DNA of 64,000 nucleotides from Burkholderia pyrrocinia. Its GTDB lineage: Bacteria; Pseudomonadota; Gammaproteobacteria; Burkholderiales; Burkholderiaceae. Every line of letters begins with the position of its first letter. Positions within the stretch are counted from its first letter, which is position 1. Where the stretch lies: positions 930,001 through 994,000 of the forward strand of contig NZ_CP011504.1 of NCBI RefSeq assembly GCF_001028665.1, written 5' to 3'. The position numbers were made by a program, and so were the translations under genes. Of the stretch, positions 38,794 through 62,245 are shown in pieces. The notes beneath the pieces are model-generated. The model did no database searches. It was not told the origin of the DNA and was given only the letters and a program-made list of their open reading frames with translations.

Positions 38794-38846
38794 GGTGTAC
38801 ATTTTTAAACTTTATTTTCTGAATCTTCGGGTATTCACCCTGTGAA
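38794..38846 (-). promoter_or_regulatory. Degenerate fifth copy of the island promoter element
   Basis: GGGTATTCACCCTGTGAA (38829-38846) resembles the GGGTATTCCCCTGTC box of the four other copies. It is separated by a T/A-rich tract from GGTGTACA (38794-38801), at the place where GGTCATNATGAC stands in them: 36 bp between the GGT triplets versus 38 bp in copy 1. It lies 41-93 bp upstream of the histidine phosphatase. The second box is too degraded to be sure. Confidence 0.35.
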
Positions 38847-38895
38847 TTCCTTCCCCGGGCCGCGGGCGCCCGGGGATATGGCAAGCGCCGGCCGG

Positions 38896-39780
38896 TCACG
38901 CGGAATGCGTGACGCTTCCGTCGACGGCCGCCTGCAGCGATCGTTCCGCCGCGGGCGTCACCAGCACGATCTTGCCGATATGGCGGCCCGAATCCATCAG
39001 CTCGTGCGCGGCGCGCGCATCGCGAAAATCGAACAGCCGGTAGACCTGCGGCTTGACGGCCCCTTGCCGGATCAGCGGCCACACGGCCTCTTCGAGCTCG
39101 CGAATGAGCTGCGCCTTCTCCGCGTAGGTGCGCGAGCGCAGCGTCGAGCCGATGTGCGTGAGCCGCTTCGTCAGCATCGGAAACAGGTCGAGCTCCTTCG
39201 CGGGGCCTTTGATCACGCCGATCTGCACGATGCGGCCGTTGATCGCGGCCGCCGCGAAATTGCGTGCGACGTAGTCGCCGGCGATGATGTCGACGATCAC
39301 GTCGACGCCCTTGCCGCCCGTGAAGCGCGCGACCTCCTCGACGAAATCCTCGCTGCGGTAGTCGATCGCGAGATCCGCGCCGAGCCGCATGCTCGCGTCG
39401 CGCTGCGCGTCCGAACCGACGGTCGTGATGATCGTCGACGCGCCGAACGCCTTCGCCAGCATCGTCGCCGTCGTGCCGATCCCCGATGCGCCGCCGTGGA
39501 TCAGCACGCTTTCGCCGGCTTTGAACTCACCGCGCTGGAACAGGTTCAGCCAGACCGTCATGAAGGTCTCCGGCAGCGCCGCCGCTTCGGCCATGCCGAG
39601 GCCGTCGGGAATCGCGAGCGTGTTGCTCTCGTTCGCCACCGCGTATTCCGCGTAGCCGCCGCCCGGAATCAGTGCGCCGACGCGGTCGCCAACGACGAAC
39701 CGCGTGACGTCGCGCCCGACCGCAACGATGTCGCCGGCGATCTCGCGGCCGCCGCACTGCTGAAGGACGTGGGGAACTGA
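38896..39780 (-). pseudogene. 5'-truncated NAD(P)H:quinone oxidoreductase (PIG3-like)
   Basis: Zinc-less medium-chain dehydrogenase. Coding similarity starts at HVLQQCGGREIAGDIVAVGR and is good to the end: IPGGGYAEYAV, AALPETFMTVWLNLF, SVLIHGGASGIGTTA, and DLFPMLTKRLTHIGSTLRSR. The first ~60 residues (GroES-like substrate fold, normal MKAI start) are absent; the frame instead continues upstream into the neighbouring dehydrogenase stop without a usable start. A deletion at about 39770-39790 is inferred. A GTG near 39795 could start a shortened protein, which would be unlikely to fold. Confidence 0.75.
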
Positions 39781-39847
39781 CGCCGCGCGCACCGCGCCCC
39801 GGCGGCGTTCTGCCGGGAGTGCGGCCGCATGGCGGCATCGCGCCGCG

Positions 39848-41137
39848 TTACTCGCGCGTCCAGCCGTTCTGATAGAGCTGCCCGGCCAGCACGCCGAGGC
39901 GCGACGCAAGCACGTAGTTCTCGCCGTCCTCGATCAGCGCCGAGCGCACGTCGCGGAACAGCTTTTCGATCGGGAACTCGCGCGTGGTGCCGTTCCCACC
40001 GAACAGCTGGAACGCCTCGTGCGTGATCTTCATCGCTTCCTCGGTCACGCTCACCTTCGCCTGCGCGGTCGCATACGGATGGCTCTGCGGCGACAGGCGC
40101 GAGAACGCGAGGCTGCGGCGCGCGATCGCACGCGCCATCTCCAGCCGGCGCAGCATCTCGCCGATGCGCAGGTGCGTCATCTGGTGATCCATCAGCAGCG
40201 CGCCGCCCTGCTTGCGCTCGTGGCAATACGCGAGCGCCAGTTCGAACGCGGCGCGCGCGACGCCGACGAACACCTGGCACATGTGCGTGCCGGCGTACGA
40301 CCACGTCGACGCGAGGTTGCCGAGATAGTCGTCCTTCAGCGCGACCGCGAAGCGCTTCGGCACCTTCACGTTGTCGAAATAGATCTCGCCCTGCGGCAGC
40401 GCGCGCTGGCCGATCTTGTCGAGCGGCTTGCCGCGCGACACGCCCGGCAGATCGAGCGGCAGGATCATCGCAATGCCGTTCGTGAATGCGCTGCGCTCGC
40501 CTTCGCCGTAGAACCCGTCGCCGTAGTCGGCCGCCATGTACGCGAGCGCGACCTGCGCGACCGACCCGTTCGAGATCCACGCCGAACTCTGCCCGTTGAT
40601 GACGATTTCATCGGCGCCGACCTTCGCGGACACGTTGCCCACCGGCTGCCTGCCGTTCGCGCTGAGTTCCTGCCGATACAGGATGGCCGCGTCCGACCCG
40701 CGATCGGGCTGCGTGTTCATCCAGCAGCCGACCTTGCCCGCGCACATCTCGATCAGTTCCTGATTGCCGACCGTCTGCGCCATCATCAGCGGCATCGTCG
40801 CGGCGCCGATCGACACGGCGAGGCCCGAATCGCCCCAGCCGAGTTCCTCGCCGATCAGCGACTCGATGCGCACGGCCGTCTCCGGCGGAAACTGCGCGAT
40901 CAGTTGCGGATCGAGCCCGAGCTTCGCACTCTCGACGATCGCGGCCCAGTACGGCGAGCCGGGCGCGATCACCTCGTCCGGCGTCATCCGGTCGAGCTCG
41001 CGGCCGATCGGCCGCAACACGTCGCGCGCAAAGCGGTGAACCGTGTGCTGGATTGCGCTTTCCTCTTCGCTCAGCGGCGTCTCGAAGCCGGTCATGCCGA
41101 CCAGCGGCAGCGCCGCGGACTTGTTCAGACGAATCAT
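39848..41137 (-). CDS. Acyl-CoA dehydrogenase
   Basis: A 429-aa acyl-CoA dehydrogenase. N-terminal helices (EEESAIQHTVHRFARDVLRP), flavin region NTQPDRGSDAAILY, AWISNGSVAQVALAYMAADY, and C-terminal AFQLFGGNGTTREFPIEKLF with the adenine-binding GGNG motif. Clearly distinct from the ACAD at 34143. ATG 41137 has GGAGGAG at about 8 nt. Promoter element copy 1 lies 86-139 bp upstream. It heads a short unit with the truncated quinone oxidoreductase. Confidence 0.92.
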   Translation of the reverse strand: MIRLNKSAALPLVGMTGFETPLSEEESAIQHTVHRFARDVLRPIGRELDRMTPDEVIAPGSPYWAAIVESAKLGLDPQLIAQFPPETAVRIESLIGEELGWGDSGLAVSIGAATMPLMMAQTVGNQELIEMCAGKVGCWMNTQPDRGSDAAILYRQELSANGRQPVGNVSAKVGADEIVINGQSSAWISNGSVAQVALAYMAADYGDGFYGEGERSAFTNGIAMILPLDLPGVSRGKPLDKIGQRALPQGEIYFDNVKVPKRFAVALKDDYLGNLASTWSYAGTHMCQVFVGVARAAFELALAYCHERKQGGALLMDHQMTHLRIGEMLRRLEMARAIARRSLAFSRLSPQSHPYATAQAKVSVTEEAMKITHEAFQLFGGNGTTREFPIEKLFRDVRSALIEDGENYVLASRLGVLAGQLYQNGWTRE

Positions 41138-41222
41138 CTCCGTTCTCCTCCTGGACTCGAATCATGTCGACCAGGCAGCGAACGCGCCCGGCCATCCCAC
41201 TTCTAGTAACACATACCAAACA

Positions 41223-41276
41223 TAGGTCATCATGACAAACACAGGAAGCAAAAAAAAGACAGGGTATTCCCCTGTC
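41223..41276 (-). promoter_or_regulatory. Island promoter element, copy 1
   Basis: Plus strand: GTCATCATGAC (41226-41236), 21 bp including AAAAAAA, then GACAGGGTATTCCCCTGTC (41258-41276). Read on the minus strand, TTGTCA (41233-41238), a 17-bp gap and TATGTG (41210-41215) form a sigma70-like promoter for the acyl-CoA dehydrogenase. The second box is then centred near -64 and the first overlaps -35. The hairpin followed by T8 can also terminate the upstream TetR gene. Confidence 0.7.
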
Positions 41277-41308
41277 TTCTCTCGCGTGTCGGCTGTGAGG
41301 TCCGGCCG

Positions 41309-41986
41309 CTATTTGCCTGCGGGTACTGTCAGCGTGCCGTATGCGAGCGCGCGAGACGTCGCCGCGAAATATGCGTCGAGCGCCTGCGTGTGCCGCCCGG
41401 TGCCGTACTGCATCGCGAAGCCATCCGCCAGTGCGATGAGCATCGTCGCCGCATGCCGGCTGTCGGCCGCGCTGAACGCGGGATTGACGGCGCGCAGCAG
41501 TTGCGCGAGATCATGCGTCAGCGTCGCATACCATTCGTCGTAGAGCTTGAAGCACTCGGGATCGGTCGCCGCGAACGACAGGAAATGCCGGAACAGTGCG
41601 TTGTACTTGGCATCCTTCGCATCGCGGATCGAGCGCTCCACGATCTCCTCGAACACGTCGCGCGGCGACGCGTCGCTGCTGAGCGCGCGCTTCATGTCGT
41701 CCAGGTACGTGTCGATGACCGGCTCGATGACGGCCCGCAACACGGCGATCCGGGTCGGGAAGTAGTACTGCAGATTGCTGACGCTGATGCCTGCCGCCGC
41801 GGCAACCGCGCGCTGCGAGAATTCCAGCGGGCCGCCTTCCAGCAGCAGCTTCCGCGCGACGCGAATAATCGTGTTGCGGGTGCGCAGGCCTTGCGCCCGC
41901 AAACCGTCCGGGTTGCTTGCCGCTGCGGTGGTGGCAGTCGAAGTGCGCCGCTTTTTGCCGCTGCGCTGCTCGTTGGGCACTGTCAT
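41309..41986 (-). CDS. TetR family regulator, candidate regulator of the island
   Basis: A 225-aa TetR protein. A ~40-residue basic N-terminal tail, then HTH PLEFSQRAVAAAAGISVSNL-QYYFPTR, and a ligand-binding domain (FRHFLSFAATDPECFKLYDE, HAATMLIALADGFAMQYGTG). ATG 41986 (MTVPNEQ). It lies inside the island, between the PuuB-like oxidase and element copy 1, on the same strand. The palindromic GTCATNATGAC boxes are of a size suited to a TetR dimer, so it is the first candidate to bind them. Confidence 0.9.
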   Translation of the reverse strand: MTVPNEQRSGKKRRTSTATTAAASNPDGLRAQGLRTRNTIIRVARKLLLEGGPLEFSQRAVAAAAGISVSNLQYYFPTRIAVLRAVIEPVIDTYLDDMKRALSSDASPRDVFEEIVERSIRDAKDAKYNALFRHFLSFAATDPECFKLYDEWYATLTHDLAQLLRAVNPAFSAADSRHAATMLIALADGFAMQYGTGRHTQALDAYFAATSRALAYGTLTVPAGK

Positions 41987-42154
41987 CGTGTTCGTCGTGA
42001 AGGTGGCGTTTCGGCTTCGTCGAATTGACGCTCCGTACCTTACGGAGCGCCAACGACTATACCCGATGCGAGCCTCATTTTCCATCGAGCCGCCCGTCGC
42101 CGGGGCGGTCCGGCCAGATGCACGTTTCAGCGTCGTGACGATCGCGTGCTATCG

Positions 42155-43630
42155 CTACCTCTGCCGCGCCTTGCGGTTCACGCGTTCGTCGAGCAGGTTT
42201 GCGACGCCGAGCATCGCATTCATCGCGCACCATCGCAGCGGCTCCGGCGGCACCGACGGCGTCTTGTGCGTCAGCGCCTCGAGCAGCGGCGATTGCTCGC
42301 CCTGGATCCGCTCGGCCAGCACGCGCCCGATCAGCGACTGCGTGCCCACGCCATGCCCCGAGCATCCGGCCGTATAAAACACGTTCCGGTGCGCGCCGGC
42401 CGCGCCGACCACCGGCAACGCGTCGCCGGCGAACGAGATATAGCCGCTCCAGCACGCGCGCACCGGCACGTTGCCCAGTTGCGGAAAGCGCGCGTGCAGC
42501 GCCTTCACGAGCGCGCGATACGCGTCGTCGTCCGGCACGTTCGGCGTCTGCGAACCGTAGACGTAATGCAGCCGCTTGGTCGTCAGCAGCAGCGTGTTGC
42601 GGGCGGTGAGGCGATGGCTCTCCATCGTCAGGTGCGACGTGACGATGCCCTCGCGGCGCGGCCAGCCGAGCGCCGCGAGTTGCGCATCGGACAGCGGCTC
42701 GGTTTCGAGCGCCGACACGCGCAACGGCATCACCTTGTCGCCGAGCAGGCCGAGCTGCGGCGTGTAGGCGTTGGTGGCAAGCACCAGCACCGGCGCACTC
42801 GCGCTGCCGCGTGCCGTGCGCACGCGCACCGTCTCGCCTTCGTCGAAATCGAGCAGCGCGGTGTTCTCGTAGAGTTTCACGCCGGCTGCGAGCGCCGCGC
42901 GCCGCAACCCCGTCACATACTTGCCGGGATCGAGCGTGCCGCCGCCCGGCACATACGCACCGAACAGGAAGGCCGGCGGAATCCCGCGCGCGCGCATCGC
43001 CGCGCCATCGAGAAACTGCGCGGGCGAGCCGAGTTCGATGCCGGTTTCCATGCTCTCGCGCAACCGTTTCTCCTGCGACGGATGCACGCCCGCGCGGATG
43101 ATGCCCGACGCGCGGTAGTCGCAGTCGATCGCGTATTCGGCGAGCTTGCGCTCGACGTAGGCCACGCCTTCGTCGTAGAAGCCGACGATCTGCCTTGCCT
43201 GTTCGCGCCCGACGCGCTTGAGGAACAGCTCGTACTCGAGCCCCTGGCCGCCGGCGAGATAACCGGCGTTGCGCCCGCTCGCGCCGAAGCCCGCGAACTC
43301 GCGTTCGAGCACGACGACGCTCGCGCCGCGCGCAGCCAGTTCCAGCGCGGTGGACAAGCCCGCAAAACCGGCGCCGACGACGATCACGTCCGCGCGGACG
43401 TCGCCTTCGAGCTGCGGCTGCGCGTGATCCGGCGGCTCGATCCATCCGCCGACGGGACGATACTTCTGCAACGCGGCGTCGGCGCGGATTTCCTCGCCCC
43501 AGCGCGCCAGCGGCCCGGCCGCGTCCGCGCCCACCGCCTGCATCGACGCCGCCGCGCCGACGCCGTCCGGCGCGCGCCGCGCCGCCTGTCCTGCCTGCCC
43601 GAGCGCCATCGCGCCGTGTGCGTCGCTCAT
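42155..43630 (-). CDS. FAD-dependent oxidoreductase, PuuB/DAAO-like
   Basis: A 491-aa D-amino-acid-oxidase-fold flavoenzyme. DVIVVGAGFAGLSTALELAA at residues 81-100; the FGASGRNAGYLAGG block, GGGTLDPGKYVTGLRRAALA, and the C-terminal FYTAGCSGHGVGTQSLIG are characteristic of gamma-glutamylputrescine oxidase and related amine oxidases. Unusual: an ~80-residue N-terminal extension before the FAD motif. It starts 12 bp after the thiolase stop. Oxidation of an amine or amino acid inside the cell would suit the two exported amine oxidases of the island. Confidence 0.88.
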   Translation of the reverse strand: MSDAHGAMALGQAGQAARRAPDGVGAAASMQAVGADAAGPLARWGEEIRADAALQKYRPVGGWIEPPDHAQPQLEGDVRADVIVVGAGFAGLSTALELAARGASVVVLEREFAGFGASGRNAGYLAGGQGLEYELFLKRVGREQARQIVGFYDEGVAYVERKLAEYAIDCDYRASGIIRAGVHPSQEKRLRESMETGIELGSPAQFLDGAAMRARGIPPAFLFGAYVPGGGTLDPGKYVTGLRRAALAAGVKLYENTALLDFDEGETVRVRTARGSASAPVLVLATNAYTPQLGLLGDKVMPLRVSALETEPLSDAQLAALGWPRREGIVTSHLTMESHRLTARNTLLLTTKRLHYVYGSQTPNVPDDDAYRALVKALHARFPQLGNVPVRACWSGYISFAGDALPVVGAAGAHRNVFYTAGCSGHGVGTQSLIGRVLAERIQGEQSPLLEALTHKTPSVPPEPLRWCAMNAMLGVANLLDERVNRKARQR

Positions 43631-43641
43631 GTCCGCCTCCG

Positions 43642-44883
43642 TCAGTCCCTGCTGAGAATGTGAATCGCCAGCGCCGCTTCCTCGACGCCCTGCAATCCGC
43701 CGCCGTTTTCCTGGATCGCATGGCGCGCGCCCTGCACCTGGCGCCCGCCCGCCTCGCCGCGCAACTGCGTGACCAGCTCGTACAGCTGCCCGATGCCGGT
43801 CGCGCCGAGCGGATGGCCCTTCGATTCGAGGCCGCCCGACGTGTTGATCGGGATCCGCCCGCCGAGCGTGAATTCGCCCCGCTCGGCAGCCGGGCCGCCT
43901 TCGCCGAACGGCACGAAGCCGAGGTTCTCGGCCTGGATGATTTCGCCCATCGCCGACGCGTCGTGCACTTCGGCGACGTCCATGTCCTCCGGCCCCACGC
44001 CGGCCTGCTCGTAGGCCTGCAACGCGGCGAGCCGGCCGATGTGCTTGTGCGGCTCGTCGATGCGCCGGCGCGTGAAGCTGCGCAGCACGCTGGCGGCGAT
44101 CCGGATGCAGCGGCTGCGATCGGCGCCGATGCGCGCCAGCCCTTCGTCGGTGCAGAGGATCGCGGCTGCCGCGCCGTCCGACAGCGGTGCGCACATCGGC
44201 AGCGTGATCGGATACGTGATCGGCGCCGCCGCCAGCACCTCGTCGATCGTGAACGGCTGGCGGAACTGCGAATACGGGTTGTGCACCGAATGCCCGTGGT
44301 TCTTCGCCGACACGGCGGCGATCTGCCGCTGCGTGGTGCCGTACGTGCGCATGTGATGCCGGCACAGCGCCGCGTAGATCTTCATGAAACGGCTGTACGG
44401 CCGGTCGGATTCCGAGCCGGGCGGCGGCTCGATCCCTTCGCCGAGCTGCGCGAGCGTCGCGAAGTTCTCGTCGATGCGCGACACGTCCCAGCCGGCCTCG
44501 AACAGCGCGAACGATTTCGCCTTGTCCGCGACGTTCATCTTTTCCGCGCCGAGCGCAAGCGCGACGTCGCATGCGCCCGACTGAAGCTGCCGCACGGCCA
44601 GGTGCACGGCCGTACTGCCGGACGCGCACGCATTCTCGACGTTGAACACCGGAATGCCTTCGAGGCCGATCTTGCTGAACACGACCTGACCGGGAATCGA
44701 CAGCTGCCCCTGCAGCGCGCCATTGGTGATACCCGCGTAGAACGCCGCGCGGATCGCATCGGCATGACAGCCCGCGTCGCGCAACGCACGCTGCAGCGCC
44801 TCGCGCGCCAGGTCGTCGAGACTACGGTCGAGGTGCCGGCCGAACACGGTCATCGCGATACCGGCAATGTAGATGTTGCTCAT
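43642..44883 (-). CDS. Thiolase, SCP-x/lipid-transfer type
   Basis: A 413-aa non-decarboxylating thiolase. Nucleophile Cys86 in FNVENACASGSTAVH; His motif AEVHDASAMGE; C-terminal ESKGHPLGATGIGQLYE. The N-terminus MSNIYIAGIAMTVFGRH and overall sequence are those of the SCP-x/sterol-carrier thiolases, which cleave 3-ketoacyl-CoAs of bulky or branched substrates. Sits between the CoA ligase (26 bp) and the FAD oxidase (12 bp). Confidence 0.92.
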   Translation of the reverse strand: MSNIYIAGIAMTVFGRHLDRSLDDLAREALQRALRDAGCHADAIRAAFYAGITNGALQGQLSIPGQVVFSKIGLEGIPVFNVENACASGSTAVHLAVRQLQSGACDVALALGAEKMNVADKAKSFALFEAGWDVSRIDENFATLAQLGEGIEPPPGSESDRPYSRFMKIYAALCRHHMRTYGTTQRQIAAVSAKNHGHSVHNPYSQFRQPFTIDEVLAAAPITYPITLPMCAPLSDGAAAAILCTDEGLARIGADRSRCIRIAASVLRSFTRRRIDEPHKHIGRLAALQAYEQAGVGPEDMDVAEVHDASAMGEIIQAENLGFVPFGEGGPAAERGEFTLGGRIPINTSGGLESKGHPLGATGIGQLYELVTQLRGEAGGRQVQGARHAIQENGGGLQGVEEAALAIHILSRD

Positions 44884-44908
44884 CGTCTGGAATCCATATG
44901 AAGGAGGC

Positions 44909-46462: not shown

Positions 46463-46504
46463 TTCACAGGTTCCGTTGAGTCTGTACCGGTACGGCTGCG
46501 GTCG

Positions 46505-47638
46505 TCACAGTTGCGTGACCGTGGCGCGCGCGAGCCCGCGTTGTTCAAGAAAGCCGAGCAGGTAGCGATGGCCGAACGCCTTCGAACCCGATGCGAAGCC
46601 GACCTTCGCGGTATCGCCATCCAGGAGCTTGATGGCGCCCGCTGCATGCAATGCACCGGTCGCGATGTACGGCGTGATGCCATGCAGCGTCGCGCGGACT
46701 GCGTTAAGGTGGCCACGACCGATCGCGAAGTCGACCGTGCGATGAAGCGACGTACGCTCGCGCGGTGGCATCGACGGCGTCGTCGAATCCACGATCTGCT
46801 TCAGCACCGCGTCCTGCTGTTCGCGCGGCAAGTGCTTGTACTCCGCATCCCATTTTTGGCCGAGCGCATGCACCATCTGCATCGCGTTGTTATCGTAGAA
46901 ACCGACGGACGAGATACAGCTGCGCACACGCGCGTCATGCTCGAAGTACACCGGCAGGGACGTGCCGCCCCACGGCAGCGAGAACACCGGCTGAATGAAA
47001 TCCGGGGAGACGATGCTGAACGAAGCGTGCTGTTCGTGCGGCACCAGCTGCTTTTCCCACAGATAGCAGGCTTCCTGTCGATACCCTTCGAAGATGGTTG
47101 CCGTCGAACCGACGCTTACGCCGGCGCCTGCGCCCCGCGGGCCGCGCGTAAGCGTTGCGGTTTCCAGCGCATCGATGCCCGGCGTCTCGAGTGCCAGCTC
47201 CGCGGCAATTTCCGCGAACGAGTACATGTACGCAACCGAAGGGGACAGCAGCAGCCCTGCCTGCCGATACAGTTCGCCGAACTGTTCTCGGACCTGGCGG
47301 ATATAGTGCTGTTCGCCCGTGGTGTCGAGGTAATGACAACCTGCCTTGAGCGCTGCTTCGACAGACACCAAACCGAAATTGAAGAACGGTCCGACCGTGT
47401 TGCATACGACCTTTGCGCCACGGAATGCGTTGACGAGGGAATCGACGCTGTGATCCGCCTCGATGATCTCGAAGTTCGCCGATTCAAGGCGCACGACGCG
47501 CTGCGCCATCATTTCCTTCGCGCGGCCCGCGTTGCGCGCGACCGCGGTGAACGGGATGTTCTGGTCGATCAGCCAGTCCATGATCAACATGCCGGTGTAA
47601 CCGCTTGCGCCATAAACGACGACGGGGTGCTTAGCCAT
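46505..47638 (-). CDS. Saccharopine-dehydrogenase-like reductase
   Basis: A 377-aa protein with an N-terminal Rossmann domain (HPVVVYGASGYTGMLIMDWL, VVCNTVGPFFNFGLVSVEAA, CHYLDTTGEQHYI) of the saccharopine dehydrogenase/trans-acting enoyl reductase type. The C-terminal half is not recognised. Related proteins reduce enoyl or imine-like bonds. First gene of a unit (this, ligase, thiolase, FAD oxidase, perhaps TetR) and preceded by element copy 2. ATG 47638 has GGAGACA a few bases upstream. Confidence 0.78.
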   Translation of the reverse strand: MAKHPVVVYGASGYTGMLIMDWLIDQNIPFTAVARNAGRAKEMMAQRVVRLESANFEIIEADHSVDSLVNAFRGAKVVCNTVGPFFNFGLVSVEAALKAGCHYLDTTGEQHYIRQVREQFGELYRQAGLLLSPSVAYMYSFAEIAAELALETPGIDALETATLTRGPRGAGAGVSVGSTATIFEGYRQEACYLWEKQLVPHEQHASFSIVSPDFIQPVFSLPWGGTSLPVYFEHDARVRSCISSVGFYDNNAMQMVHALGQKWDAEYKHLPREQQDAVLKQIVDSTTPSMPPRERTSLHRTVDFAIGRGHLNAVRATLHGITPYIATGALHAAGAIKLLDGDTAKVGFASGSKAFGHRYLLGFLEQRGLARATVTQL

Positions 47639-47744
47639 GGTTGTCTCCTGAAACGTACGTTGTTCAAAATCGATTCGGCCGAACGCCGGGTACTGCCGCT
47701 TCACATCCGGGGGGTGTTTCTTTTGTAGAACACATTACCAATCT

Positions 47745-47802
47745 TAGGTCACTATGACAAAGTAAACGGCAAAGAAAAAGGCAGGGTATTCCCGGTCCTG
47801 TC
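47745..47802 (-). promoter_or_regulatory. Island promoter element, copy 2
   Basis: GTCACTATGAC (47748-47758), 21 bp with an A-rich tract, then GGCAGGGTATTCCC plus CCTGTC (47780-47802, with a 3-bp insertion GGT). On the minus strand TTGTCA (47755-47760), a 17-bp gap and TAATGT (47732-47737) form the best promoter of the set. It drives the saccharopine-dehydrogenase-like gene 94 bp further on. It also follows the cytochrome c stop at 47815. Confidence 0.7.
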
Positions 47803-47814
47803 GCGCGACGCGCA

Positions 47815-49965: not shown

Positions 49966-50007
49966 CTTGGGTGCTCCATCCTTCCTGGCTTTTTTAGTGG
50001 ATTCAAC

Positions 50008-50976: not shown

Positions 50977-51007
50977 GGAAGAACCTCCGTAGTGGTATGC
51001 GCCGGCA

Positions 51008-51292: not shown

Positions 51293-51323
51293 GACTGGAT
51301 CTCCGTCGGGATGTGCGTCTACT

Positions 51324-53684: not shown

Positions 53685-53752
53685 GACGTTACCCCTTCAT
53701 GTATTCCGGTGGCGTACGCCACCTGCCACCTGCCGCTTGCCACCCGCCGCCG

Positions 53753-55597: not shown

Positions 55598-55675
55598 GAT
55601 CCACCTCCGCCCCTGTTCGATGCCGGCGCACGATCGTTGCGCGCGCCGGTCCTTGTATCCGTCAGCCGGTGACCG

Positions 55676-57040
55676 TCACCGTTCGCTGACCGAGCGCAGC
55701 GATTCCGCCGTGTAGAAGTCCGACTTGAAGCGCGGGTCGTCCGGCTGCTCGAGCCAGCGAATGTCCTTGCCCTGACCGATCGACGACGCGTCGAACACGT
55801 ATCGGCCGTTGATCATGTCGTACTGCGCGAGCGGTTCGTTGTCGCAGGTGCCGCCGAGCTCCCACACGGGAATCGGGTAGCTTTCCCGCACCTTCCACAG
55901 CTTGCCCTGCGCGTCGTAGTCCTCGCCGACGAGCGCGAGCCAGCTGTCTTCGTCGAGATAGAACACCTTCTTCGACGCGACGTGCCGCGCGCTCGGCTTC
56001 AGCGTCGCTTCGACCGCCCACACGCGATGCGTCTCGTAACGGCGGTTCGCAGCGGCGAGGCCGTCGGGGGTCGCGACGTCATGCAGCTTGCTCTTGAACC
56101 GGTACATGCCGAACGCGTTGTACGGGACGATCATTTCCTTCTTGCCGACCAGCTTCCAGTTGAACCGGTCGAGCGAGCCGTTGAACATGTTCGCCTCGTC
56201 GATCAGGTACTGGTTCTCGAACCCGATCAACGGTGCGTCGTGCGTATAGGCCGGCATGCGTCGCACGCGCCGCTGGCCCGGGAAGTAGTAGTAGGTTTCC
56301 GAGTCCTTGTTGAAGTACTGCCGCTGGACGAAGGCCTGACCGGCGAGCGCGGCGGGCGAATTCATCTGGAAGTAGACGGCCGCGCTCAACTGGTCGACAT
56401 CCTGCGGCGAGCGCTTGCCGAGCTTGGCGGACGGAAAGTAGAACGTCTGCGGGCCGACCGCGTCGATCCAGTCGCTGCCGCCCGGACGCGGCGAAATGGC
56501 CGTGGCAACCTGCGCCCATTCGACGCCTTCGCCGCGATAGCGCATCTCGTAGTTCAGGATCGCTTCCACGCCGCTCTTCGGCTGCGGGAACGGCACGCCC
56601 GGCAACGCGGCCGATGCGAGGTTCTCGCCGGTCGAATCCAGCTTCGCGGCCGTGAGGTTCGCCTTCGAGTTCTGCTCGGCGGCGTCCGGCAGTTGACATT
56701 CGCGATGGGACGGGTAGACGTCCATCCGGTAGCCCTTCTTCTGCTTGATCAGCGCGACCTGCCCGGGCGACAGCTTGTCCGCGTACTTGTCGACGTTTGC
56801 GGCATCGATCGAGTAGAGCGGTTTCTCGTTGCGGTGCTTCCAGAAATCGGCGCGCACCTTGCCCCACTCCCAGCCCGCATCGGGCGACTGCTTGCCGGCA
56901 TAGGCCGGCACCACGCCGTCCTTGCTCGCCGCTCGATCGGCGCCGGCCGGTGTCAGGTCGTCCGCCGCGACGGCCGTGCCGATCGCGAGACATGCAGCGG
57001 CCGCGATCGCGGACACGGCCCAGAAACTATGCTTCTTCAT
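55676..57040 (-). CDS. DUF1329 periplasmic (LolB-like fold) protein
   Basis: A 454-aa exported protein with signal peptide VSAIAAAACLAIGTAVA. Conserved DUF1329 blocks: GYRMDVYPSHRECQLP, TYYYFPGQRRVRRMPAYTHD, RFNWKLVGKKEMIVPYNAFG, and SKKVFYLDEDSWLALVGEDY. The large curved sheet resembles lipoprotein carriers; with DUF1302 it probably handles a lipid-like ligand in the periplasm. ATG 57040 has AAGGAGA just upstream. The 229-bp gap before it holds no gene. Confidence 0.92.
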   Translation of the reverse strand: MKKHSFWAVSAIAAAACLAIGTAVAADDLTPAGADRAASKDGVVPAYAGKQSPDAGWEWGKVRADFWKHRNEKPLYSIDAANVDKYADKLSPGQVALIKQKKGYRMDVYPSHRECQLPDAAEQNSKANLTAAKLDSTGENLASAALPGVPFPQPKSGVEAILNYEMRYRGEGVEWAQVATAISPRPGGSDWIDAVGPQTFYFPSAKLGKRSPQDVDQLSAAVYFQMNSPAALAGQAFVQRQYFNKDSETYYYFPGQRRVRRMPAYTHDAPLIGFENQYLIDEANMFNGSLDRFNWKLVGKKEMIVPYNAFGMYRFKSKLHDVATPDGLAAANRRYETHRVWAVEATLKPSARHVASKKVFYLDEDSWLALVGEDYDAQGKLWKVRESYPIPVWELGGTCDNEPLAQYDMINGRYVFDASSIGQGKDIRWLEQPDDPRFKSDFYTAESLRSVSER

Positions 57041-57269
57041 CACGGTTCTCCTTCCCACTCCGCCTTCGTTCGCCCGCCGTGGGCGAAACGCGTTCACTCC
57101 GACCGCTTTCGTCGACCGACGATTGCGTCGCTCCTTGATCGCGGCCGGCCGGGGTTCCGGCCGGCCGCCTGCCGCTTGCATTGCCTTCTTCGATTCGCTC
57201 GTGCCTTTCCGTCAGGACTGCGATTCATCTGGAACGCGAACCCGTCCTGAAATTCGTCGCTGCCGCCCG

Positions 57270-57683
57270 TCAGTCCTTGCCGGAACCGGCCACCGCTACC
57301 GCGCGGACCTCCACGCACAGGCCCGGCAGCGCCAGCTGCGTCACGCCGACCGCGGTCCAGGACGGATAGCGGTTCGGGAAATACTCGTCCTTCACTGCGG
57401 CGAAACCCTCGGTCTCGCGCTGCAGATCCGTGTGGAACGTCGTCAGTTCGACGACGTCGGCGAGGCTCGCGCCTGCCTCCTCGAGGATCATCTTCAGGCA
57501 CTCGAACGCGATCCGCGCCTGCGCCTGCACGCCGTCCGCCGGCTGCATCTGCGCGTCGAGGCCGACCTGGCCCGAGACCCAGATCGTGTCGCCGACACGC
57601 GTCGCCGGCGAGAAGTGGTACGCGTCGTACCACGGCTGGAATGCGGGCGGAACGATCGATTGCCGCTTGGGGGTAGCTGCCAT
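57270..57683 (-). CDS. RidA/YjgF-family protein
   Basis: A 137-aa Rid protein; family members hydrolyse reactive enamines/imines to carbonyls. Features are YHFSPATRVGDTIWVSGQVG, ARIAFECLKMILEEAGASLA, and GLCVEVRAVAVAG. In the RidA subgroup the catalytic Arg lies two residues after the VEV; here it follows directly, so it may belong to another Rid subgroup. Its place between PhyH and DUF1329, in a region with three amine-oxidising enzymes, suggests cleanup of imine products. ATG 57683. Confidence 0.88.
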   Translation of the reverse strand: MAATPKRQSIVPPAFQPWYDAYHFSPATRVGDTIWVSGQVGLDAQMQPADGVQAQARIAFECLKMILEEAGASLADVVELTTFHTDLQRETEGFAAVKDEYFPNRYPSWTAVGVTQLALPGLCVEVRAVAVAGSGKD

Positions 57684-57700
57684 GATGGAAATCTCCTGGC

Positions 57701-58534
57701 TCAGACGAGTTGACGGAAACACGGTGCGCGGAACGGATCGCCTGCCTTCAACGCGGCGAGTTCCTCGACGAACAGCACGCCGGCGGGCGTGAAGCCCGAG
57801 CGGCTTTCATCGGGCAGCGGGCTGAACACCGCGTCGTCGCCGAAGAAGCGCAGCACCAGCGTGTGGCGATCGGGCAAATCCGCATCGACCGCGCCGCCGC
57901 CGTGCAGCACGCCCGGATGGAGCAGCAGCACGTCGCCCGGCTTCGTTTCCCACGAGACGATGTCGTATGCGCCCGGCGCCGCGCGGCGTTCGGCTTCGAT
58001 GTTCGGCAGGCGCGGCCACACGTCGCCGCCATGGAGCGGGTCGGTCGGGTCGTCGGCGTTCTGGAACGTGGTGCCGTCGTGGCGCACGCCGTGATGCGAA
58101 CCGCGCACGATCTCCAGCGCATTGCGCTTCGGCACGGCCTCGAAGCTGATCCATGCGTTGCCGAAGTGCATCCCTTGCCAAGGCAGGTACGACGTGTCCT
58201 GGTGCCACGGCGAGCGCGCGCTCTTGCCGCCGCCCTTCATGAACAGCTCCTCCGCGAAGTACCACACGTGCTTAGAGCCCCACAGGTCGGCGAACAACTG
58301 CCCGAACGGCAGCGTGCCGACGAGTTCGTCGAGCCGGGCCTTCGCATACGGGTTCGCGTTGTCGTTGTGCGACTTGTACTCGGTGCCGTCGAGCAGCGTC
58401 GTCGCCATCGGGCCCGGGTTCTCCATCCCCCAGTCGAACACCGCACGGCATTGCGCCAATTGTTCGTCGTCGAGCACGCCTTCGACGAGCACCGCACCAT
58501 CCTCGAAGAAAGCCCTGCGTTTGGATGCATCCAT
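57701..58534 (-). CDS. PhyH-family Fe(II)/2-oxoglutarate dioxygenase
   Basis: A 277-aa phytanoyl-CoA dioxygenase-like enzyme. Iron ligands HQD (residues 111-113) in SPWHQDTSYLPWQG and a His of LLLHPGVLHGGG (206 or 211); the 2-oxoglutarate Arg lies in HTLVLRF. It hydroxylates an unactivated carbon, in this family often alpha to a CoA ester. First gene of the longest unit of the island (PhyH, Rid, DUF1329, DUF1302, MMPL, small protein, Asp-box, amine oxidase, cytochrome c), with element copy 3 upstream. Confidence 0.9.
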   Translation of the reverse strand: MDASKRRAFFEDGAVLVEGVLDDEQLAQCRAVFDWGMENPGPMATTLLDGTEYKSHNDNANPYAKARLDELVGTLPFGQLFADLWGSKHVWYFAEELFMKGGGKSARSPWHQDTSYLPWQGMHFGNAWISFEAVPKRNALEIVRGSHHGVRHDGTTFQNADDPTDPLHGGDVWPRLPNIEAERRAAPGAYDIVSWETKPGDVLLLHPGVLHGGGAVDADLPDRHTLVLRFFGDDAVFSPLPDESRSGFTPAGVLFVEELAALKAGDPFRAPCFRQLV

Positions 58535-58614
58535 CGTAGATCTCCTGATTCGTCCAACGATAGCCGGCGATCAACCTCGACTGCCGACCTCTTCAGTAGA
58601 ACATGGTGACAATG

Positions 58615-58672
58615 TTAGGTCATCATGACAAAAATAAAATAAAGAAATAGGCGGGGTATTCCCTGTTTTGTC
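58615..58672 (-). promoter_or_regulatory. Island promoter element, copy 3
   Basis: GTCATCATGAC (58619-58629), 20 bp of AAAATAAAATAAAGAAATA type, then GGCGGGGTATTCCC and a diverged TTTTGTC (58650-58672). Minus strand TTGTCA (58626-58631) is the likely -35; the -10 is weak (CACCAT at 17 bp, or CATGTT), suggesting a need for activation. It lies 81 bp or more upstream of PhyH. The rest of the 58535-58937 gap (403 bp) shows only an extra GTCATGAC at about 58708-58715. Confidence 0.7.
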
Positions 58673-58937
58673 TGCATGATCGAACGCGCATCGCGACGGG
58701 CCGCCGGCTCGTCATGACAATCGGCTTTCGGCCTTCATACAAGCTTGCGACGAAGCGCGGCCGGCACTTGGTCGCAACGTCATCCGCGCACGCGGCCGCA
58801 GGCCTCTTCTCCGCGAAGATCGCGCGCGGCGCCACTGCGCCCGAGTCAGGCGGGTCGCTTCCGTCAGCACGCTCCGCCACCGCCTCGGCCAGCCGATTCC
58901 GATTCGTGAATCCCGACCTGTTTTTCAGTACAGCTAC

Positions 58938-59615
58938 TCATTTCGGATACGACAACACGCCCGCGCCGTCACGGCTTCGCCCCTGTTCCCGCTCCAGCGC
59001 GCAATACGCGTAATAGATCACGACCGTGAAGTACGACCATGTGAGCAGCGCGAGCACGTAAAAATTGAACACGACATTGGTCTCGTCGCCCGGTATCTTG
59101 TAGAAGTCGTAGATGCACGCGATCGCCAGCGACGCGGCGAGCGCGACGAGCGTCGTCAGCGCATGGAACGCGTGCCCGGCGCGCAGCAGCCGCATCACGA
59201 AGCCGGCGAGATAGATCGCGAGCAACGTCCACATCGTCACGTAGAAATACGGCAGCGGGCCTTTCAGGAAATCGGCCGTTACCAGCGCGATCGTTCCGGC
59301 GGTCGCGAGCACGAACAGCAGCACGTCCTGCCACACCGACGGCCGGTAGCCGTGCGTGACGGTCATCAGGCCCGCGACGGCGATGACCGGCATCCCGAAC
59401 CCCCGCGAGAATGCATCGAGAAAGTGCGAAATGCCGTACGACACCGGGGATTCCGTCGCGAAAAAGATCAGCGCGTTGGTCGCGGAGATCGTGACGATCC
59501 ACCATTCGAAGCCGAGCAGGAAGTTGCGCTTGCGGACGAACTTGAAGCCGTAGATGCCAGTCGTCATCGCAAGCGTCGCGCTGGCAAGACAAAGAGCAAG
59601 TGATCTGTGATCCAT
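58938..59615 (-). CDS. Polytopic membrane protein, unknown family
   Basis: A 225-aa integral membrane protein with seven hydrophobic segments, e.g. ALCLASATLAMTTGIYGF, EWWIVTISATNALIFFATES, FGMPVIAVAGLMTVTHG, VLLFVLATAGTIALVTADFL and VLALLTWSYFTVVIYYAYCA. I do not recognise the family. It follows the second cytochrome c by 35 bp, so it may anchor the amine oxidase/cytochrome pair or pass electrons to the quinone pool. Histidines (GISHF, VTHGY, GHAFHA) near membrane edges could bind haem, but this is speculation. Confidence 0.72.
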   Translation of the reverse strand: MDHRSLALCLASATLAMTTGIYGFKFVRKRNFLLGFEWWIVTISATNALIFFATESPVSYGISHFLDAFSRGFGMPVIAVAGLMTVTHGYRPSVWQDVLLFVLATAGTIALVTADFLKGPLPYFYVTMWTLLAIYLAGFVMRLLRAGHAFHALTTLVALAASLAIACIYDFYKIPGDETNVVFNFYVLALLTWSYFTVVIYYAYCALEREQGRSRDGAGVLSYPK

Positions 59616-59650
59616 GGTGAGAACTCCGGAGGTCGATTGCTTTCGATGAT

Positions 59651-60310
59651 TCACTGTTTGCCGGGGCCGACGCTCGCGAGATAGGTCGCGACCGCCGCGC
59701 GATCGTCCGCCGACATTGCCCGCGCGACGCGCTGCATCGTGCCCGTGGCCTCGCTGCGCGAGCCGTTCGCGAACGCGTCGAGCTGCGCGAGCAGGTAGTC
59801 GTAGCCCTGCCCGGCCAGGCGCGGAAACTGCGCCTGCCCGGTCAGCCGCGCGCCGTGACAGGCAGCACACGCGCCGCCCGCCACCAGCTGCTCGCCCTTC
59901 GCGCGCAGTCGCGCATCCGGTTTGAAATAGCGGTTGTCCGCCGGCGCCTGTTTCGCGTAGTAACCGGCCAGATGCGCGATCTCCGCTTCGCTCATGGTCA
60001 TCGCGAGCGGGCCCATCGTCGGGTTCGCCCGTTGCCCGCTCGCGAACGCGCGCAACTGCGCGGCGACGTATTGGGCCGGCTGGCCGGCGAGGCTCGGATA
60101 CGCCTGGCTGAGCGACGTGCCCTTCACGCCGTGGCAGCCCATGCACGCGTCGGTCACGCGCGGCCACGGGCCGCCGTCGGCGTCGTCGGCTTGCGCCGTC
60201 GTATCGATATGGCGCTGCAGGCGATAGAAGCCGAGCAGCGTCGGGCCGTAGAGGGCCAGCAGCGCGCCAGCCACCACGAGCGCCGCGAGCAGCAGCATGC
60301 GTTTCTTCAT
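59651..60310 (-). CDS. Dihaem cytochrome c (c4-like), second copy
   Basis: A 219-aa paralogue of the protein at 47815. N-terminal anchor MLLLAALVVAGALLALYG; haem sites CMGCH (56-60) and CAACH (148-152); PSLAGQPAQYVAAQLRAF and PRLAGQGYDYLLAQLDAF repeat as in c4. It follows the second amine oxidase by 10 bp in the same order as the first pair, so the whole oxidase-cytochrome module has been duplicated. ATG 60310. Confidence 0.9.
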   Translation of the reverse strand: MKKRMLLLAALVVAGALLALYGPTLLGFYRLQRHIDTTAQADDADGGPWPRVTDACMGCHGVKGTSLSQAYPSLAGQPAQYVAAQLRAFASGQRANPTMGPLAMTMSEAEIAHLAGYYAKQAPADNRYFKPDARLRAKGEQLVAGGACAACHGARLTGQAQFPRLAGQGYDYLLAQLDAFANGSRSEATGTMQRVARAMSADDRAAVATYLASVGPGKQ

Positions 60311-60320
60311 CTCCGCTCTC

Positions 60321-61805
60321 CTATGCGCGACGCAGTGCATTGAGCGCCTGAAGCGCGCTTTGGTGACCGGAGCGAACGGCGCCGTCCATGTAGCCGGCCC
60401 AGATATTCGCGGTCTCGGTGCCCGACCAGATCAGGTTGCCGCACGGCGCACGCAACGCTTCGCCGTGCGCGCTCCAGAAGCCGGGCGGGATTGCCGATAC
60501 GCACGTGAGCGTCCACGGGTCGGCGAGCCCCCAGTCGCGATCGTGGTACGACACCGGCGCACGCGCGTCGTCGCCCCAAGCCTGCGCGTACAGATCCATG
60601 TGCATCTGCTTTGCGGCCTGCGGGTCCGACGGCACCAGCGCATTCCGGACGAACGCGTTGATCACACCGATCTCGCCGCCCGGCGGCGAATTGTCGTAAG
60701 CCCAGAAGATCGGCCCGTCGGTCTGGAAGAGGTGGCCGTTCAATCCCTTGTCGCGCCAGAACGGGCGGCGGTAGACCATCGCCGTCTTGCGCGCCGGCGA
60801 ATGGGCCGGCCACGCGCGCTGCAGCGCGTTGCGCTTTTCGGGCAGCGGCGGGTCGAACTGCACCTGGTGGCACAGCGCCGGGTGGAGCGCCATCACGACC
60901 TGTTTCGCGCGCACCGTGCCGCGATCGGTCTGCAACGTGACGACGTCGCGATCCCAGCCGACGATCCGGCGCACCGGCGACGACAGGCGCACCTTGTCGC
61001 CCAGTTGCTGCGCCATCCGGGTGCTGAGGATCTGCGAGCCGCCGACGAAACGGGTTTCCTGCGCGCTGTGCTTGATCGAGTCGAGCTGCGCGTAATCGCA
61101 ATCGGCGGAATTGATCATCGACAGGAAATGCAGCAGCCCCATCTTCGCCGGCGCGACGCCGCCCGACAGCGAGATCGACGCGTTCCAGCCCATCCGGTCT
61201 TCGGGTTTGATGCCCTGCTGCGCGAGCCAGTCGCCGACCGACAGCCGGTCGAGTTCGCCGGCCTTCGGCGACGTCCACGGCGTGGCCGACGGCACGTCGC
61301 GCGACAGCCGGCTGAGCTTCGCCGCGACGGCCTCGTCGGTGCCGAATGTGCCCTGCAGGTCGATCTCGGCGCGCCCGTCGCCGCCGAGAATGACCGTCTT
61401 GCCTGCGTAATAACTCGGGAACGTGCCGACTTCCAGCTCGCGGGCGAGATCCGCAACAGCCGTCTGGCCCGGGCCGATCCACTGGCCGCCGACTTCCGTC
61501 ACATAGCCTCCGCCCACGTCGTAGTTGAGCGTGCGGCCGCCCACGCGATCGCGCGCCTCGAGCACGACGAAGGATTCGCAGCCCGCGTAGCGCAGATCGC
61601 GCGCGGCCGTCAGGCCGGCAAGCCCGGCGCCGACGATCGCGACATCGAGCACGTCGCCGTCGTTGCCGGCGGCAGGCACCGCATCGGCCTTCGCCCGCAC
61701 CGTGCCGAGCGCAAGCCCGCCCGCCGCGACGGACGCGCCCGCGACCTTGAGCCACTGCCTGCGCTGCATGTCGGCCGACCCGCTGGTGGATGACTTCCTG
61801 GACAT
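60321..61805 (-). CDS. Tat-exported flavin amine oxidase/dehydrogenase, second copy
   Basis: A 494-aa enzyme similar along its length to the one at 48487. Tat signal MQRRQWLKVAGASVAAGGLA (residues 13-32); FAD motif VAIVGAGLAGLTAARDL; EARDRVGGRTLNYDVGGGYV; lysine region SPARKTAMVYRRPFWRDKG; C-terminal GTETANIWAGYMDGAVRSGH. The start could be ATG 61805 or the later ATG 61769 (MQRRQW). First gene of the unit oxidase-cytochrome-membrane protein. Element copy 4 lies about 240 bp upstream. Confidence 0.9.
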   Translation of the reverse strand: MSRKSSTSGSADMQRRQWLKVAGASVAAGGLALGTVRAKADAVPAAGNDGDVLDVAIVGAGLAGLTAARDLRYAGCESFVVLEARDRVGGRTLNYDVGGGYVTEVGGQWIGPGQTAVADLARELEVGTFPSYYAGKTVILGGDGRAEIDLQGTFGTDEAVAAKLSRLSRDVPSATPWTSPKAGELDRLSVGDWLAQQGIKPEDRMGWNASISLSGGVAPAKMGLLHFLSMINSADCDYAQLDSIKHSAQETRFVGGSQILSTRMAQQLGDKVRLSSPVRRIVGWDRDVVTLQTDRGTVRAKQVVMALHPALCHQVQFDPPLPEKRNALQRAWPAHSPARKTAMVYRRPFWRDKGLNGHLFQTDGPIFWAYDNSPPGGEIGVINAFVRNALVPSDPQAAKQMHMDLYAQAWGDDARAPVSYHDRDWGLADPWTLTCVSAIPPGFWSAHGEALRAPCGNLIWSGTETANIWAGYMDGAVRSGHQSALQALNALRRA

Positions 61806-62042
61806 GATGTGTTGGTTACCGCCTGCAAATGGCGCGAGCGGCGGCCGCCTCGGCGGCACGCGGCCATCGCTCGCGCGGGATCTGACGACTGGATGCGACC
61901 TCGTTCCGCTTCACCTGCCGCCGGCCCGCCCACCTCGATTCCGGTGTGCGATCCAGTTCGCATTCCTGCCTGTACGCGTGCCGTATTTCCTTGTATCGAT
62001 AAGGATTTGCCGGCCCTTGTAATTAGTAAATGTTGCAAAAGT

Positions 62043-62097
62043 TAGGTCATGATACATAAAACAAGATTGAAAAAAAAAGACAGGGTATTCCCCTGTC
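62043..62097 (-). promoter_or_regulatory. Island promoter element, copy 4
   Basis: TTAGGTCATGATACA (62043-62056, second half-site degenerate), 22 bp with AAAAAAAAA, then a perfect GACAGGGTATTCCCCTGTC (62079-62097). It stands in the 440-bp gap between the second amine oxidase and the response regulator, about 240 bp from the oxidase start, a longer leader than the other copies have. No gene needs a terminator here on the minus strand, which argues that the hairpin is regulatory. Confidence 0.65.
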
Positions 62098-62245
62098 GCG
62101 ATGCGAATCGTGCCAATTCTGAAAGGTCTGTGAAAGACGGCGCGCACGATGCGGATCGGTGGCGCCCGATGTCTGCGTTCGATGGAACCGGCCGTGCGGT
62201 AGTATGGCGGCTCGATGGAACCCCGATGGATCTGAACGAGTGGCC

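Follow-up and report, generated by a model that had tools for sequence, protein, structure and literature searches.

The repeated element and its gene neighbours

The window analysed here is a stretch of 64,000 nucleotides from Burkholderia pyrrocinia (contig NZ_CP011504.1, positions 930,001 to 994,000), which carries a catabolic island encoding amine oxidases with cytochromes c, a PhyH dioxygenase, RidA, acyl-CoA enzymes and an outer-membrane/RND-type transport set. Within this island, an element of approximately 85 bases occurs in four copies (A to D), all in one orientation and each just 5' of a minus-strand unit, confirming what a preliminary description of this DNA had reported. Each copy combines an L box, with the pattern GGGAATACCC-N3-CTTTTT, and an R block. 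The limits of the element, its repeat structure, conservation and gene neighbours, and its co-occurrence with a TetR gene of the island were established by computation. The features are as follows.

41262..41271, minus strand: copy A, L box core GGGAATACCC, inside the dyad GACAGGG-GAATA-CCCTGTC, then T8; hairpin z -5.28
41204..41239, minus strand: copy A, R block (repeat 1 41223-41239, repeat 2 41204-41220), 5' of the acyl-CoA dehydrogenase gene
39848..41137, minus strand: acyl-CoA dehydrogenase, first gene of unit A
41309..41986, minus strand: TetR protein, 225 aa, by gene order the last gene of unit B; proposed R-binding regulator
47784..47793, minus strand: copy B, L box core, no terminator-like stem
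47726..47761, minus strand: copy B, R block (repeat 1 47745-47761, repeat 2 47726-47742)
46505..47704, minus strand: DUF5938 / saccharopine dehydrogenase-like, first gene of unit B
Unit behind copy B, minus strand: DUF5938 / AMP-ligase / thiolase / FAD oxidoreductase / TetR
58654..58663, minus strand: copy C, L box core, no terminator-like stem
58597..58632, minus strand: copy C, R block (repeat 1 58616-58632, repeat 2 58597-58613)
57701..58534, minus strand: PhyH-type dioxygenase, first gene of unit C
Unit behind copy C, minus strand: PhyH / RidA / DUF1329 / DUF1302 / MMPL / BNR / amine oxidase / cytochrome c
62083..62092, minus strand: copy D, L box core, within a fully paired 7-bp stem, with a T run
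62024..62059, minus strand: copy D, R block (repeat 1 62043-62059, left half degenerate; repeat 2 62024-62040)
60321..61769, minus strand: flavin amine oxidase, first gene of unit D; start possibly further upstream, up to 61859
Unit behind copy D, minus strand: second amine oxidase / cytochrome c unit
62240-62983, plus strand: response regulator gene, divergent, upstream of copy D

Exact matches to GGGTATTCCC in the window are confined to 41262, 47784, 58654 and 62083 (four matches vs. 0.03 expected from shuffles), and the start of R follows the start of the core by 32, 32, 31 and 33 bp in copies A to D, with the partner box always on the same side. The two-part box at near-constant spacing that had been described is borne out, and on its gene-proximal side conservation continues into a second repeat (TTTGGTA...TGTTCTA). 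A profile search of the whole genome (7.96 Mb, model R1, E <= 10; 150 of 188 first-look candidates scored) matched the four window copies only, with E values of 2.5e-21 to 3.2e-20, and the R-only model R2 likewise found these copies and no others at E <= 10. Matches on these copies are circular, since R1 was built from them and R2 includes them, whereas the absence of other matches in the genome and the R1 matches in other genomes are not.

Sites from the window and its relatives comprised 167 rows, 146 of them unique. An island-gene homologue lies next downstream on the same strand in 153 of the 167; the remaining 14 include sites in one genome (G145) that precede genes for a PhyH-type protein and for an MFS transporter. 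After exclusion of seven unique rows with a core score below 7/10, the L box stands 31-33 bp 5' of R in 133 of 139 sites, a count that leans towards constant spacing because placement used hand-typed consensus seeds and a mild spacing penalty. Mean pairwise identity among 57 non-redundant sites of these 139 is 0.89 in the L core, 0.78 in the T tract, 0.71 and 0.65 in the two repeats, 0.34 in the spacer, and 0.27 and 0.28 in the flanks. Combined, the strong matches in the island and in relatives, the functionally linked units and the conserved spacing support a genuine regulon with a two-part site, as previously suggested.

Organization of the R block

Three unique rows with an R score of at most 20 were excluded from the repeat test, leaving 143 sites and, after a redundancy filter, 85. 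In these non-redundant sites, R is composed of two tandem repeats of about 17 bp, TTTGKYANNNTGWYCTA, placed 19 bp apart: the profile correlation as a direct repeat at offset 19 is 0.70, a value reached in none of 2000 column shuffles, for which the maximum was 0.24 +/- 0.08. The corresponding dyad correlation is 0.42, and dyads centred in each single repeat are weak (0.32 and 0.36). The sequence of repeat 1 varies (TTATGTA vs. TTTGTCA). The GTCATNATGAC palindrome first described for this box is exact in two of the four copies (41226 and 58619), with one mismatch at 47748 and only half of it kept in the fourth; rather than a true palindrome, the box is the first member of a direct repeat in tandem. 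The -35 and -10 elements that had been assigned are not supported by the promoter scan, which gave no sigma-70-like minus-strand site at any of the four copies. In its placement, R adjoins the TetR gene and precedes the presumed target units of TetR, as would an operator.

The L box and its hairpins

Strong hairpins followed by a T run are predicted for copies A and D (z of -5.28 and -3.11; 7-bp stem, 5-nt loop), with the L core lying in the loop and upper stem, whereas copies B and C fold no better than shuffles (z of 0.03 and -0.34). A stable stem with a T run is thus a property of A and D only; the terminator scan lists D, and A is absent from its list. Most sites preceding ACAD2, which have the end of TetR immediately 5' of them, possess a long stem. 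Of 34 unique sites preceding PhyH, 31 have an exact core, and the stem has only three pairs in 21 of the 34. An Rfam scan of the window at the gathering score gave no matches.

With at most one mismatch, the L pattern is present in 37 of 299 genomes of the family. Outside the island, it marks a porin promoter in four Cupriavidus-type genomes and nine further isolated places. The porin-promoter L stands without R and next to another TetR gene, between divergently transcribed genes, and bases outside its core pair little. Isolated places were examined in three genomes (G289, G074 and G168), that in G074 resembling a plain terminator; those in three others (G191, G197 and G274) share one sequence. 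In six genomes taken to be Oxalobacteraceae, the L pattern (at most two mismatches) was never found on a contig with an R site; the L core matches at no more than 8/10 in the 17 Oxalobacteraceae R sites displayed in register, and by eye the 18th (L273) has no L core at that distance. Several Oxalobacteraceae R sites that follow a co-directional gene carry a plain GACAGG hairpin and T run (L123/L266, L124/L278 and L280), in which the loop differs and the distance to R is similar. The L box is an add-on, missing at the Oxalobacteraceae R sites.

No shared candidate regulator of L was seen inside the clusters among the ORFs typed. A second TetR-type gene, dissimilar to the first and found before copy C in G009 and with similar ORFs in G048 and G058, was considered as a partner of L and is too rare.

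The TetR gene and other candidate partners

The TetR protein carries PF00440 (29.7 bits; cut-off 24) and PF13977, a BetI-type C-terminal domain, in a search run on the longer ORF to 42085, the 225-aa start following P0005. It falls below the cut-off of all eight NCBIfam models that it matched, of which BetI is the best (TIGR03384, 39.2 bits vs. a cut-off of 201.3), and so lies outside the BetI equivalog. Its predicted structure has nine helices (mean pLDDT 85.9) in an all-helical TetR fold, and the fold search gave 833 matches at E <= 10, of which the 50 listed are transcriptional regulators, either of TetR type or unnamed.

In the family set of 299 genomes, the 28 with the element at E <= 1e-10 are the same 28 that encode this TetR at E <= 1e-60. 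Among 65 genomes of the genus, 30 have element matches at E <= 0.01, with exactly four copies in 26 of them, and TetR occurs in 29 of the 65, all among these 30; the exception (G047) has one weak site at E 3.3e-4. A relative of TetR is encoded at 80 loci; 43 of the 56 with at least 45% identity have the element, and none of the 24 with 27-33% identity does. The 13 close-TetR loci lacking the element in the fetched flanks (up to 3 kb) gave one partial match to R2. The recognition-helix stretch SNLQYYFPT is retained in all 31 aligned close TetRs, down to the R-keeping Oxalobacteraceae, where R is kept alongside TetR and L is missing. Because the element is accompanied by the entire island, co-occurrence by itself does not distinguish TetR from other island genes, and the regulator of the element may be coded elsewhere than in the island.

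Three proteins had been put forward as partners, namely TetR, LysR and AraC, and TetR emerged as the best of them: it occurs in 14 of 16 fetched region sets, at most 40 bp from a site in 12 and at most 1.3 kb in the other two. The other two candidates are rarer and more distant, with an orthologue of the window LysR in 4/16 region sets (closest site at 1.2 to 7.2 kb) and a gene similar to the window AraC in 2/16 (4.8 and 6.2 kb away), the latter count covering similarity to that AraC only. Neighbouring response-regulator and histidine-kinase genes were also rejected, any one family being found in at most 5/16 region sets.

Proposed regulatory scheme and alternatives

Most likely, R is a tandem TetR operator over the promoters and L is a separate site, because R travels with TetR and persists without L in Oxalobacteraceae, and L stands without R in Cupriavidus-type genomes. 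In its full form, the explanation that we consider probable has R as the tandem operator of the BetI-like TetR in the shared promoter-operator of one catabolic regulon, with L likely serving an activator. Since the same site precedes four gene groups, the island is probably one jointly controlled pathway. We infer binding of R by TetR, repression, a ligand and an activator on L: two TetR dimers would sit side by side over each unit's promoter and probably repress it, and a pathway compound, perhaps an acyl-CoA or an amine, would release them. As the last gene of unit B by gene order, TetR would also control itself. The L box would most likely be bound by an activator, one with a further target promoter in some Burkholderiaceae, and the L-core hairpin and T run of copies A and D may additionally stop transcription from upstream.

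Alternatively, L could be only an intrinsic terminator insulating the promoter from the upstream unit, with R alone being regulatory. The hairpins of A and D, the terminator call for D, the long stems at most ACAD2 sites behind TetR, and the plain GACAGG hairpins at a similar distance from Oxalobacteraceae R sites all favour such a role, and L could be partly a terminator remnant. As a complete account it appears rather unlikely, given that B and C fold like shuffles, A is absent from the terminator scan, PhyH sites keep the exact core despite three-pair stems, and both copy D and the Cupriavidus-type L lie between divergent genes, the latter with little pairing beyond the core. The hairpins and T runs of A and D would also suit a transcribed RNA leader of riboswitch type, a very improbable reading in view of the missing hairpin in B and C, the lack of any Rfam match in the window, and a tandem 19-bp repeat that fits DNA binding better.

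The identity of the protein on R allows a further alternative, in which an AraC-family or other direct-repeat regulator binds R and TetR acts elsewhere. Regulators of the AraC family, including AraC/XylS-type activators, typically bind direct repeats as well; R, with its subsites of about 17 bp in direct repeat 5' of a unit, is foremost a direct repeat and weakly a dyad (0.70 vs. 0.42), and AraC-family genes end directly 5' of R sites in two Janthinobacterium loci (L280 and L282). Unlike at AraC/XylS-type sites, no AraC gene similar to that of the window was found consistently with R (2/16 region sets vs. 14/16 for TetR), which makes this alternative improbable. Finally, likeness over about 85 bp might mean that the copies have no regulatory function and are merely a dispersed repeat or the products of recent duplication, but this is hardly credible: the genome holds four copies only, all before units of one island, and flanks and spacer are near chance (0.27-0.34) where the L core and both repeats are kept. 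The earlier statement that the copies do not reflect gene duplication stands, and the element is not a dispersed repeat either.

Returning to the TetR operator with a separate L, a more tentative history, possible yet on the unlikely side, is that an upstream-unit terminator hairpin turned into the protein-binding activator box GGGAATACCC in Burkholderiaceae, at a fixed distance from the tandem TetR operator. The box would later have been reused at other promoters without its hairpin, including beside a different TetR in Cupriavidus-type genomes, giving a movable insulator and activator site with an exchangeable TetR operator.

Relation to known systems

In having a TetR_N domain, a BetI-type C-terminal domain and catabolic acyl-CoA gene neighbours, the island TetR resembles the TetR-family proteins that repress acyl-CoA catabolism (Thermus FadR, PsrA and KstR), and its listed fold matches include Thermus FadR bound to lauroyl-CoA (3anp). 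Unlike for those repressors, the operator proposed here consists of direct repeats in tandem with a 19-bp period, and an extra upstream box is conserved. QacR and EthR are TetR proteins that load two or more dimers; two neighbouring R subsites suggest two dimers here as well, and EthR chains are among the fold matches listed, whereas the R subsites differ in being direct repeats 19 bp apart. Copies A and D share the 7-bp stem, 5-nt loop and T run of intrinsic terminators, from which the element differs in that the core is conserved without the longer stem in B and C and that copy D lies between divergent genes.

In the portions of the literature retrieved, no report of the L or R motifs was found, and exact-letter searches for the boxes gave no Burkholderia paper among the matches listed (15 of 37, and 1 of 1). 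The present analysis delimits the regulon of an island that is widespread in Burkholderiales, together with the sites involved; those same portions hold no account of how this island is controlled. It names TetR as the likely repressor, provides the L sequence as a ready bait for a second regulator, and raises the question of whether regulator sites can arise from terminators.

The locus at 38794

A degenerate fifth copy had been proposed at 38794. The locus has no R1 or R2 match and is not a member of the set. In a comparison with three relatives (G285, G048 and G191), none retains the letters that resemble GGGAATACCC. A dyad there, ATTCAC-N3-GTGAAT, is roughly kept in G285 and G048 and not in G191, and each of the three preserves GATTCANNAAATAAA with no more than a single substitution.

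A shared element before four units of an island

The window carries a catabolic island in which four units, as judged from gene order, are each preceded on the minus strand by a copy of one ~85-bp element. Read gene-ward, its layout is (GACA)GGGAATACCC-N3-CTTTTTNT, a variable spacer and TTTGTCATNATGACCTAA-N-TTTGGTAATGTGTTCTA; the upstream box with its conserved core is termed L and the gene-side block R.

Copies of the element (minus strand) and the units that they precede
Copy A: L core 41262-41271, R 41204-41239; acyl-CoA dehydrogenase, zinc-type dehydrogenase
Copy B: L core 47784-47793, R 47726-47761; DUF5938, AMP-ligase, thiolase, FAD oxidoreductase, TetR
Copy C: L core 58654-58663, R 58597-58632; PhyH dioxygenase, RidA, DUF1329, DUF1302, MMPL transporter, BNR protein, flavin amine oxidase, cytochrome c
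Copy D: L core 62083-62092, R 62024-62059; second flavin amine oxidase, cytochrome c, one protein without known identity

These enzymes suggest a hydrophobic amine-bearing compound as the substrate of the island. All four copies carry the GGGAATACCC core without mismatch, and the window contains it nowhere else (0.03 occurrences expected by chance). A profile built from the four copies (R1) matched only these copies in the whole 7.96 Mb genome at E <= 10, as did a profile of the R part alone (R2), built from 33 diverse sites including the four, supporting the composite element proposed in the preliminary description. A suggested fifth copy at 38794 matched neither profile and was dropped. The assignment of -35 and -10 hexamers to the boxes is not supported by the promoter scan, which found no sigma-70-like site on the minus strand at the four copies; as a guess, the conserved CTA at the R end and a TG shortly before it could form an extended -10.

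Separately, a perfect dyad (ATTCAC-AGG-GTGAAT, 38833-38847, minus strand) lies upstream of a histidine phosphatase gene at 38753 and is roughly conserved in two of three relatives. The unit behind it encodes the histidine phosphatase, an APH-like kinase, two SDRs, an acyl-CoA dehydrogenase and LysR, and the dyad is perhaps a LysR site.

Distribution among genomes

Within the genus, 30 of 65 genomes had matches at E <= 0.01, with exactly four matches in 26 of them (6, 3, 2 and 1 in the others). The family sample gave matches in 37 of 299 genomes; the best E was <= 1e-10 in 28, from 7 of 25 genera, and the remaining nine were weak (E >= 3.3e-4), one of these (G288) having an L-only site. In the fetched regions (16 sets from 14 genomes, apparently including Pandoraea, Trinickia, Caballeronia, Cupriavidus and Paraburkholderia), most sites lay within rearranged versions of the same island. 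The expectation that matches would occur only upstream of orthologues of these units held for most sites, but 14 of 167 site rows had no island-gene homologue next downstream. A genus member in which TetR was not found, G047, has a single degenerate site (L077 8900-8965, G047:C110:353899-353964) resembling a decaying island.

The R block and its candidate regulator

Site placement for the alignment of 167 site rows (146 unique) relied on seeds and mildly favoured one spacing. In this alignment R is a tandem direct repeat, with a profile-column correlation of 0.70 at offset 19, a value never reached in 2000 trials with column-shuffled profiles (best offset averaging 0.24 +/- 0.08). Dyad symmetry is lower, at 0.42 between the repeats and 0.32 and 0.36 within them; the palindrome described earlier for the first box survives as one common version of subsite 1, but R is a direct repeat first. 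The subsite consensus is TTTGKYANNNTGWYCTA, and both subsites have, by eye, the same variant spread (GGT, GTC, TGC, TGT), which would fit recognition of both by a single protein. Across 57 non-redundant sites, pairwise identity averages 0.89 for the L core, 0.78 for the T tract and 0.71 and 0.65 for the repeats, against 0.34 for the spacer and 0.27-0.28 for the flanks, which indicates conservation in separate blocks. One locus (G331:C140:4192-4463; L262, L279, L286) packs three R blocks into ~270 bp next to a single PhyH unit; the third is inverted and weak (E 0.047).

Among the three regulators proposed as partners, the BetI-like TetR of the island (41309-41986, minus strand) is the best candidate for R, as it adjoins the sites and co-occurs with the strong element, and as R persists before island-gene homologues in Oxalobacteraceae. 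Its gene is no more than 40 bp from a site in 12 of the 16 region sets and no more than 1.3 kb away in two others; the two sets lacking it are the G047 relic and a second contig of a genome with TetR on the first. The 28 of 299 family genomes with a strong element are the same 28 with a close TetR, one further genome having a distant TetR (E 2.3e-22) and no site, and the 29 of 65 genus genomes with TetR all fall within the 30 having an element match. Among TetR relatives at 80 loci, the element accompanied 43 of the 56 that are 45% or more identical and none of the 24 at 27-33%; the recognition-helix stretch SNLQYYFPT was found in all 31 close TetRs aligned. In six genomes taken as Oxalobacteraceae, R2 detected 18 sites at E <= 0.1, of which 16 precede acyl-CoA dehydrogenase, amine oxidase, DUF1329 or hyp58938 homologues (exceptions L271 and L274). 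The predicted structure of TetR, with a confident mean pLDDT of 85.9, resembles known TetR structures, including Thermus FadR with lauroyl-CoA and EthR.

The whole island travels together, though, which tempers this co-occurrence as evidence, and either R or L could be bound by a regulator encoded elsewhere than in the island. An AraC-type binder of R gains from AraC-family genes directly upstream of R in two Janthinobacterium loci, but is weakened by the presence of the window-type AraC in only 2 of 16 region sets, 4.8 and 6.2 kb from sites; the LysR orthologue is found in four sets, 1.2-7.2 kb from the nearest site. Confidence in the TetR reading is slightly lowered by LysR at 1.2 kb in one set and by the AraC-type genes at two R sites. 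On sequence grounds, R is probably the tandem operator of TetR, and the element the shared promoter-operator of one regulon.

Beside three clusters, 479-558 aa proteins with two TetR_N stretches each (L053 13156-14595, L054 17921-19597, L074 10549-12012) are apparently two TetR units fused. The neighbours of a Cupriavidus-type cluster (L065 5279-8049) are a hybrid histidine kinase and a response regulator with an adenylate/guanylate cyclase domain.

TetR-controlled catabolic regulons are already known; a search of open full-text literature at the level of listings returned no account of the R/L motifs or of control of the island. What is rated as new here is the putative tandem 19-bp TetR-type operator joined with a conserved, separable upstream box.

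The L box as a possible protein site or terminator

Of the 139 unique sites that were scored, 133 have L 31-33 bp upstream of R. A terminator role is suggested by copies A (z -5.28) and D (z -3.11), where the L core lies within a hairpin, although a simple terminator scan listed D and not A. The Oxalobacteraceae R sites lack the L core: the 17 displayed match it at 8 of 10 positions at best, and the 18th shows none at the corresponding distance. Upstream of R, 13 of 17 keep a run of five or more T, and some of the sites have a plain terminator hairpin with a different loop. However, no such hairpin surrounds the core in copies B and C (z 0.03, -0.34), and of 34 unique sites upstream of PhyH, 31 have an exact core although the stem has just 3 pairs in 21. 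Additionally, four Cupriavidus-group genomes have L but no R upstream of a porin gene.

L boxes before the porin gene (second cluster, Cupriavidus-type genomes)
L254: 6448-6467
L255: 2910-2929
L256: 7757-7776
L257: 5511-5530

Because the core is kept without the hairpin and L stands without R before porin, L is read as a putative independent protein-binding site, most likely for an activator, with termination as an earlier or further role. At the porin sites, mean identity is 0.52-0.77 in the 30 bp that precede L and 0.90-1.00 in the 70 bp that start with it; two of these genomes are close relatives. Next to these L boxes stands another BetI-like TetR, divergently oriented and typed in L254 alone; the 16-bp dyad CGATTYGCGCGAATCG is found 50 bp beyond L. 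This second cluster also contains PhyH, DAO and amine oxidase relatives, with RidA in two of four loci.

Sites after the AMP-ligase homologue in G019, G023, G049, G053, G057, G058 and G061 combine good R blocks with variant L boxes that lack the T run; the arms of these boxes covary in some (ACGAGGG/CCCTCGT versus ATGAGG/CCTCAT), and the pairing is broken in G057. Outside the island, an identical L-like GGGGAAAACCCACCCTTTTT occurs in three genomes of one genus (G191:C88:97270, G197:C118:80289, G274:C2:96108).
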